A stretch of DNA of 5,040 nt, taken from the NCBI GenBank assembly GCA_027028665.1, contig JALVIU010000142.1, positions 1 through 5,040 on the forward strand, read 5' to 3'. Made by a program: the position numbers and the translations under genes. The DNA comes from Candidatus Atribacteria bacterium (GTDB lineage: Bacteria > Atribacterota > JALVIU01). Each line of letters begins with the position of its first letter. Positions within the stretch are counted from its first letter, which is position 1. Positions 588 to 5,040 of this stretch are shown one piece after another. The notes under the pieces were generated by a model that made no database searches, was not told the DNA's origin, and saw only the letters and a list, made by a program, of their open reading frames with translations.

Positions 588-605
588 TTTGACAAGGAGG
601 TCAAA
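588..605 (+). promoter_or_regulatory. Hairpin presenting the fliS ribosome-binding site; possible CsrA site
   Basis: TTTGAC (588-593) pairs perfectly with GTCAAA (600-605), leaving the six-base loop AAGGAG (594-599), which is the Shine-Dalgarno core of fliS. The SD AAGGAGG ends 7 bases before the ATG at 608, so it also fixes the fliS start. The arrangement GAC-[AAGGAG]-GUC resembles the high-affinity CsrA target known from E. coli, in which ACARGGAUGU carries GGA in a hexaloop. The stem and loop are seen directly; regulation by CsrA is inference. Confidence 0.5.
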
Positions 606-2642: not shown

Positions 2643-3884
2643 ATGAAAACATATCATTGGGCTTTAATTGTGCTTGTTGCCTTTATCTTTGGCATGGCTG
2701 TAATGGGAATATTTTCAAATATGAAGATTGCAAAAATCGAAAAGGATTGGAACCAAAAGGTAGAGATGCTAAAAGATAGGGTAAGCCAGACAGAAAAGAG
2801 TTTAGAGAAAAAAGAAGAAGAGTTAAAAGAAAAAGAGGCCAATATAGATTCTTTAAATAAGGCAATGGAAAAGAAAAGTAATACCATTAAGACATTAAAG
2901 GAAGAAGTTGAAAAGTGCAAAAATATGCTTTCTGGGGAAACTTCGAAAGAAAAAGAGTTGAAAAAGCAACTTGAAGATAATAAAAAAGAACTGGAAAAGG
3001 TGAGCAATCTTCTTGCAAAAAGAGAAAATGAAATTATATCACTTAGAACACAGATTGCACAGAAGGATGAAAAACTCTCCCAATTTACTACACTTGAAGC
3101 ACAGGTAGATAAAGATCAGAAAGAAATAGCAAAACTAAATAAGATTCTACAGGAGAAGGATAAAGAGATAGAAAGATTAAACACGCTACTTCTTAAAAAG
3201 GAAGAAGTAATCACCAGTATGGCACTTAAGTTAGAAGAGCTTCAGGATGAATTAAGTGCTCTTAAAAATACATTGTCCAAAAAAGATAAGAAACTAAAGA
3301 ATGCAGAGAAGGCCCTTGATGTGGTAAATAAAAAACTTATAGACAAGATACAGGAGCTCGCTTCCTTAAAGACACTGGCAAATAAGGCCCAGGGAGAGAT
3401 GAGTAAATTAAAAAAGGAACTTTTAAAAAGAGAAAATGTTATAAATACATTAAAAAATGCCTTTTCTGAAAAGGATAAGATAATCGAAAATATAAAGGGA
3501 GATTTTGAAGCACTTAAGAAAAAGCTTTCATCCCTTACTGATGAACTGGGTAAAAAGGATGAGCTTATTAATACTTATAAAAAACAGCTTCTTGAATTAA
3601 AAGAAGAAATGAAAAAAGAGGTCGAAGAGCTTAATAATAGTATAAAAAATCTAAAAGGTCTTTTGAGAGAAAGAGAAGAAGAAATTGCATTGTACAAGGA
3701 AAAGATTGAGAGGCTGGAAAAATACTTTAAAAACACCTCTTATCAGTTGGGTCTAAAGTTGGAAGAGATTGAAAAGTGTAATGCATCTTTAAAAGCCCTT
3801 CAGGCTAAACTTGAAGACCTTCAAGATGAAAATAAAAAATTAAAGACTCAACTTGAAGGGGAGTACAGGAAGAGTACACCATAA
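2643..3884 (+). CDS. Membrane-anchored long coiled-coil protein of unknown function
   Basis: The 413-residue protein has one hydrophobic segment at residues 6-25, then an almost unbroken coiled coil from about 28 to 405 that is very rich in Lys, Glu and Leu. Glycine-containing breaks that could act as hinges occur near residues 97-101 and 363-370. A signature close to K-[KR]-[ED]-x-x-[IL] recurs about ten times in register with the heptads. Cys92 and Cys379, both in an EKC context, lie near opposite ends. There is no globular or catalytic domain, and database similarity to myosin or SMC proteins would only reflect composition. The flank after the membrane segment carries several lysines, so which side of the membrane the coil occupies is uncertain. 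SD AAAGGAGG at 2626-2633 fits the ATG at 2643. It is cotranscribed with the TPR gene 24 bp upstream. A structural spacer or scaffold in the cell envelope is the best guess. Confidence 0.85.
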   Translation: MKTYHWALIVLVAFIFGMAVMGIFSNMKIAKIEKDWNQKVEMLKDRVSQTEKSLEKKEEELKEKEANIDSLNKAMEKKSNTIKTLKEEVEKCKNMLSGETSKEKELKKQLEDNKKELEKVSNLLAKRENEIISLRTQIAQKDEKLSQFTTLEAQVDKDQKEIAKLNKILQEKDKEIERLNTLLLKKEEVITSMALKLEELQDELSALKNTLSKKDKKLKNAEKALDVVNKKLIDKIQELASLKTLANKAQGEMSKLKKELLKRENVINTLKNAFSEKDKIIENIKGDFEALKKKLSSLTDELGKKDELINTYKKQLLELKEEMKKEVEELNNSIKNLKGLLREREEEIALYKEKIERLEKYFKNTSYQLGLKLEEIEKCNASLKALQAKLEDLQDENKKLKTQLEGEYRKSTP

Positions 3885-3890
3885 AAGATA

Positions 3891-3974
3891 TGCCGAAGGC
3901 GGGATTCGAACCCGCACAAGCTTGCGCTCACCAGGTCCTGAACCTGGCGCGTCTGCCAATTCCGCCACTTCGGC
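3891..3974 (-). tRNA. tRNA-Leu (anticodon CAG)
   Basis: On the minus strand the gene folds as an 84-base class II tRNA. The acceptor stem is GCCGAAG with CTTCGGC, followed by discriminator A. The D-loop contains AATTGGCAGA. The anticodon stem CCAGG/CCTGG encloses the loop TTCAGGA, giving anticodon CAG (3938-3940), which reads leucine codon CUG. The long variable arm GAGC-GCAA-GCTT is diagnostic for Leu, Ser or Tyr. The T arm is GCGGG-TTCGAAT-CCCGC. The 3' CCA is not encoded and must be added by a nucleotidyltransferase. It stands alone, convergent with the coiled-coil gene (6 bp away) and divergent from glgC. No terminator is seen after it. Confidence 0.97.
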
Positions 3975-4012: not shown

Positions 4013-4037
4013 GAGGCATTATAAGGGGAGGCACAGG

Positions 4038-5040
4038 ATGAAAGATGTTATTGCTATGATCCTTGCAGGAGGACAGGGGACAAGATTAAGCGTCCTCTCC
4101 GAAAAGAGGGCAAAACCTGCTGTTCCTTTTGGAGGAAAGTATAGAATCATAGATTTTGCCCTTAGTAATTGTGTAAATTCTGGCATATATACAGTGGGAG
4201 TGCTCACCCAGTATAGGCCTTTTTCACTTATAGATCATATAGGGATAGGAAAGTATTGGGATTTAGATAGAGCCAGAGGGGGTGTAAAAATCCTTCAACC
4301 TTATGAGGGAAGGGAAGGATTTGATTGGTATAAAGGCACTGCAGATGCTATATATCAAAATCTTGACTTTATTCATAGATATCACCCCAAATATGTTCTT
4401 ATACTTTCAGGGGATCATATATATAAGATGAACTATGGAGAGCTTATTAATTTTCATATAAAAAAAGGAGCAGATGTAACTATATCTTCTATAGAGGTAG
4501 ACTGGAATGAGGCATCTCGCTTTGGAATTATTACCCAGGATAAAGATGGGAAAATTATTCGCTTTCAGGAGAAACCTAAGAAACCTGAAAGTAATCTTGC
4601 ATCTATGGGTATATATGTATTTAATACCGATTTTTTAAGTGATGTAGTCACCTCTGATGCCCGTAATCCAGACTCCTCTCATGACTTTGGAAAGGATATA
4701 ATTCCATCAATAATAAATTCTTCTAGAATTTATACCTATATATTTAGAGGTTACTGGCGGGATGTAGGCACTATACAGTCTTACTGGGAAGCTAATATGG
4801 ACCTTTTACAGGAGCTCCCTCCCCTTAATCTGTATGATTCAGAATCTGTTATATATACAAGAAGCGAAGAAGAACCCCCAGTAAAGTTCTCTCTTGATTC
4901 TTATGTGAAAAGGAGTCTTCTTTCTAATGGGTGTATAATAGAGGGGAAGGTTATAAATTCTGTTCTCTCTCCAGGCGTATATGTAGAGGAAGGTGCAATA
5001 GTTAAAGATTCCATAGTTATGTCATTTACCTATATAGGAA
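4038..5040 (+). CDS. glgC: Glucose-1-phosphate adenylyltransferase (ADP-glucose pyrophosphorylase), 3' end outside window
   Basis: GlgC makes ADP-glucose from ATP and glucose-1-phosphate, the committed and usually allosterically controlled step of bacterial glycogen synthesis. The 334 codons visible cover most of a protein usually about 420 residues long, and the frame is intact to the edge. Motifs in order: nucleotide-binding AGGQGTRL (10-17); [18 protein letters not shown] (23-40), whose Lys23 matches the fructose-1,6-bisphosphate activator lysine (Lys39) of E. coli; [12 protein letters not shown] (97-108); [10 protein letters not shown] (124-133) with the catalytic-type Asp126; SRFGI (160-164); FQEKP (176-180) with the sugar-phosphate lysine; ASMGIYVF (188-195); HDFGKDIIP (215-223); and GYWRDVGTI (238-246). 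From about residue 290 the left-handed beta-helix domain begins. SD GGGGAGG (4025-4031) ends 6 bases before the ATG. The tRNA-Leu gene is divergent upstream; whether other glg genes follow cannot be seen. Confidence 0.97.

Follow-up and report, generated by a model that had tools for sequence, protein, structure and literature searches.

The fliS leader of a Candidatus Atribacteria contig presents its Shine-Dalgarno core in a CsrA-like hairpin: chance fold or regulatory site?

The window, which is the whole stretch of 5,040 nucleotides analysed here, contains the gene fliS for the flagellin export chaperone, with a long open reading frame (ORF) on one side and a non-flagellar gene on the other. 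The features found in it are the following:

3-569, + strand, ORF without assigned family, directly upstream of fliS
538-564, + strand, sigma-28 (FliA/SigD)-like promoter TAAA-N15-ACCGATAA, 11 of 12 consensus bases
571-607, + strand, putative fliS 5' leader of about 36-37 nt, placed by reference to the -10 element
576-578, + strand, second GGA (AAAGGGATTG), 20 nt upstream of the GGA of the Shine-Dalgarno sequence (SD)
588-605, + strand, hairpin TTTGAC-AAGGAG-GTCAAA, SD core in the hexaloop, AC/GU closing pairs
594-601, + strand, fliS SD AAGGAGGT, 6 nt 5' of the ATG
608-991, + strand, fliS, flagellin export chaperone of 127 aa (Pfam PF02561, E = 1.2e-40)
about 1086-1262, + strand, ferredoxin gene, non-flagellar neighbour of fliS
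1407-2618, + strand, TPR protein
2643-3884, + strand, coiled-coil protein
3891-3974, - strand, tRNA-Leu(CAG)
from 4038, + strand, glgC

The fliS product also matches TIGR00208 (1.9e-33, above the cut-off). The slot upstream of fliS is often occupied by fliD; the ORF located there in the window gave no significant match in Pfam or NCBIfam. The gene fliW, often a neighbour of csrA, was not found within the 5-kb window with the ORF list and Pfam. Downstream of the ferredoxin gene there is a strong hairpin (1290-1323) resembling an intrinsic terminator, with 15 pairs followed by a T run. At the other end of the window, the glgC leader (4019-4045) carries two GGA motifs, one within the SD and one that overlaps the start codon (ACAGGATG); glgC is a classical CsrA target in E. 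coli.

The sigma-28-like promoter, which the initial annotation did not mention, lies within the 3'-terminal part of the ORF preceding fliS. By chance, 100 nt of a single strand would contain 0.001 such matches, and the two strands of the entire window together 0.11 (spacers of 14-16). Sigma-28-dependent late flagellar genes are preceded by the pattern TAAA-N15-GCCGATAA, which is present here as a predicted promoter with the 11/12 score. Judging from its -10 element, transcription would start near 571, immediately 3' of the upstream ORF's stop codon. When the combination of this promoter and a perfect SD was searched for in 398 Bacillota genomes, the matches were no commoner than in the reversed control, so this pattern says nothing on sigma-28 leaders generally.

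Concerning the hairpin, the initial annotation had described a perfect 6-bp stem and a hexaloop carrying the core of the fliS SD, and the sequence contains exactly that: TTTGAC at 588-593, AAGGAG at 594-599 and GTCAAA at 600-605, with the last base two bases before the fliS ATG at 608. The isolated hairpin has a predicted energy of -4.0 kcal/mol at 37 °C and of about 0 at 60-65 °C, and inside the leader its inner pairs have a predicted probability near 1.0 at 37 °C, falling to about 0.8 at 70 °C. Around it, an outer stem is predicted in which GGGA and UG of the leader pair with the first fliS codons, while the SD core and the AUG remain unpaired. The structure of the 101-nt region overall is not unusual (z = -0.02), and Rfam gave no match at the fliS leader. 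An RNA thermometer was also considered and is thought unlikely because the SD core sits in the loop rather than in the stem.

The stretch ACAAGGAGGT agrees with the CsrA consensus ACARGGAUGU at nine of ten positions, as previously claimed. The accompanying warning was that any SD brings AGGA with it, and most of the match does come from the SD itself. The same score is reached by 3 of the 14 genes whose SD is a perfect 8/8 in a Bacillota survey whose frequencies are approximate because its genes were defined by a simple ORF criterion; the score thus carries little information. The sequence selected by E. coli CsrA is RUACARGGAUGU, for the most part within hexaloops that AC and GU close (PMC7652899). 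As proposed, the AC-hexaloop-GU geometry with a GGA in the loop is that of the E. coli CsrA ligands, although most SELEX hairpins have stems of four pairs or fewer (PMC7652899). A GGA within an ACARGGAUGU-like sequence in an AC/GU-closed hexaloop, as found here, would be a feature of CsrA-repressed leaders. The precedent invoked from Bacillus is correct too: in B. subtilis, CsrA covers the SD of hag and FliW relieves this repression (PMC7652899, PMC6529632). Within the literature library searched, no paper combines CsrA with the phrase 'fliS mRNA'.

The distance of 20 nt between the two GGA motifs would suit a CsrA dimer, though the upstream one is predicted to be paired at 37 °C, its GGGA with a UCCC in the first fliS codons. 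The two GGA sites in the leader of flaA from C. jejuni are 21 nt apart, and an optimum of 18 nt is quoted for the CsrA dimer (PMC4894983). A GGA located 15-25 nt upstream of the SD occurs by default in approximately 18.5% of the strong-SD genes of the Bacillota survey.

How often such a hairpin arises by chance was estimated by keeping AAGGAGGT fixed and randomising its flanks, counting stems of at least 6 Watson-Crick bp with the GGA in a loop of 3-12 nt. These stems appeared with P = 0.020 with random flanks and P = 0.0018 after shuffling the actual leader bases, and the exact AC-hexaloop-GU plus 4 further bp appeared with P = 2.3e-4 and 0.8e-4, respectively. In 1.2 Mb from 12 Bacillota genomes, stems of at least 6 bp were present, as approximate survey frequencies, in 1 of 151 strong-SD genes and in 13 of 837 GGA-SD genes, and none of these stems enclosed an AC/GU hexaloop. 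Hence, a 6-bp stem around a strong SD is uncommon and not exceptional (0.2-2% without selection), and the exact AC-hexaloop-GU geometry is rarer than the initial annotation could show, about 1-2e-4 per gene when four more pairs are included.

Similar structures were also found in other contexts. The SD of the ferredoxin gene (1063-1080) lies in a six-pair hexaloop hairpin, UACCUU-AAUAAG-GAGGUA, whose -5.7 kcal/mol exceeds the stability of the fliS hairpin. This genome therefore produces such structures outside a flagellar context too. The exact 18-mer of the fliS hairpin is absent from the 398 Bacillota genomes and is found identically in two viral contigs, in one of them without an adjoining start codon and in the other serving an unrelated small ORF as its SD. 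The latter ORF, which is membrane-protein-like, lies on the minus strand at the end of a phage contig (L154:1-170), and the 18-mer stands there shortly after a perfect TAAA-N16-GCCGATAA; this pairing was judged a coincidence because the promoter-like part lies within an open frame.

The comparison with other fliS leaders covered 58 of them from distant bacteria (the window excluded, one leader fetched twice), all with an assignable start preceded by a GGA-type SD. None has a 6-bp SD hairpin, the longest stem being of 5 bp and most of 1-3 bp, so fliS genes do not generally carry this hairpin; it may be specific to a lineage. The nearest relatives found, at most 49% identical for FliS and 59% over the full length for GlgC, are too distant to look for covariation in a 6-bp stem. 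The gene csrA is present in 96 of the 121 fliS-bearing genomes, counted by hand over the same 149 Bacillota genomes; of the 11 genomes that supplied the first FliS matches, 10 have it. By analogy, the organism of the window likely has csrA as well, which these counts do not prove for it. The CsrA pull-down of C. jejuni consists predominantly of flagellar mRNAs, the main targets there (PMC4894983), and fliS itself is not enriched, with 1.6x versus 304x for flaA (PMC4894983 Table 1).

Regarding these data, the fliS leader seems somewhat more probably than otherwise to be an ordinary late-flagellar leader, and its SD hairpin a chance fold of an AT-rich spacer. The sigma-28-type promoter, located where the upstream ORF ends, would be used to produce a short transcript with fliS behind a leader of about 36 nt, and the perfect SD would recruit ribosomes with no dedicated regulator; as AAGGAG would be left single-stranded in the loop, the hairpin would tune initiation slightly at most. 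The frequency of unselected stems of at least 6 bp, the 58 leaders lacking one, the ferredoxin hairpin, the viral 18-mers and the promoter match are all consistent with it, whereas an AC-hexaloop-GU with six pairs is rare by chance (about 1e-4 per strong-SD gene), stands here before a flagellar gene, and the main CsrA targets of C. jejuni are flagellar mRNAs (PMC4894983). Alternatively, a CsrA dimer would bind the GGA of the SD hexaloop together with the upstream GGA and cover the ribosome-binding site, with FliW keeping the chaperone in step with flagellin. We regard this as a tentative but serious possibility, given that the loop geometry is the one CsrA prefers (PMC7652899), the spacing of the two GGAs is near that of flaA and the dimer optimum (PMC4894983), a sigma-28-like promoter lies upstream and csrA commonly accompanies fliS. 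However, pairing is predicted for the upstream GGA, which belongs to a kind frequent before strong SDs, the 58 other fliS leaders lack such a hairpin, C. jejuni fliS is not enriched with CsrA (PMC4894983), and SELEX stems are mostly shorter (PMC7652899). The specific proposal that FliW-gated CsrA directly represses fliS via a two-site leader, throttling chaperone and flagellin together, is doubtful. With a geometry that is rare by chance on one side and a low prior probability of CsrA acting on fliS on the other, a rough weighing inclines to the ordinary leader and leaves CsrA repression as a minority view of some substance.

RNA structure could also act without any protein, if the SD hairpin, stacked in a longer stem, slowed fliS initiation, less so when hot. 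The 50-nt leader has a predicted energy of -10.5 kcal/mol, and its outer stem is predicted with a probability above 0.9 at 37 °C and would be looser by 70 °C, but the z-scores (-1.36 for 50 nt, -0.12 for 70 nt) and the unpaired SD core and AUG of the model make this improbable. Less probable still, to the point of being hardly credible, is that TTTGAC-N6-GTCAAA is the DNA operator of a dimeric repressor acting downstream of the promoter. It is a perfect 6-bp inverted repeat between promoter and start codon, but its centre is the SD, which partly constrains the repeat sequence, no second copy above chance occurs within the window, and no known regulator with such a site was found.

If CsrA does bind the fliS leader, the control of flagellin by CsrA and FliW would extend to its export chaperone, which would add one more target to a known circuit and no new mechanism. 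If the hairpin is due to chance, it illustrates the ease with which an SD imitates a CsrA site.

Among the closest known systems, the hag leader of B. subtilis with its CsrA-FliW switch likewise belongs to a flagellar mRNA and has an SD overlapped by a CsrA-type GGA, with another GGA further 5'; unlike hag, the target here would be the chaperone and not flagellin, and the CsrA site of fliS is a candidate site. The flaA leader of C. jejuni is also short and presents a hexaloop GGA at the SD with a second GGA at a distance close to the 20 nt of fliS (PMC4894983). Nevertheless, both GGAs are in hexaloops there, whereas the upstream one is predicted to be paired at fliS, and the fliS of C. jejuni itself showed no enrichment in the CsrA pull-down (PMC4894983). 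Finally, the leader resembles an ordinary sigma-28-dependent late flagellar leader in its TAAA-N15-(G/A)CCGATAA promoter, its short length and its strong SD, and differs from it in that this SD lies within a perfect 6-bp hairpin.
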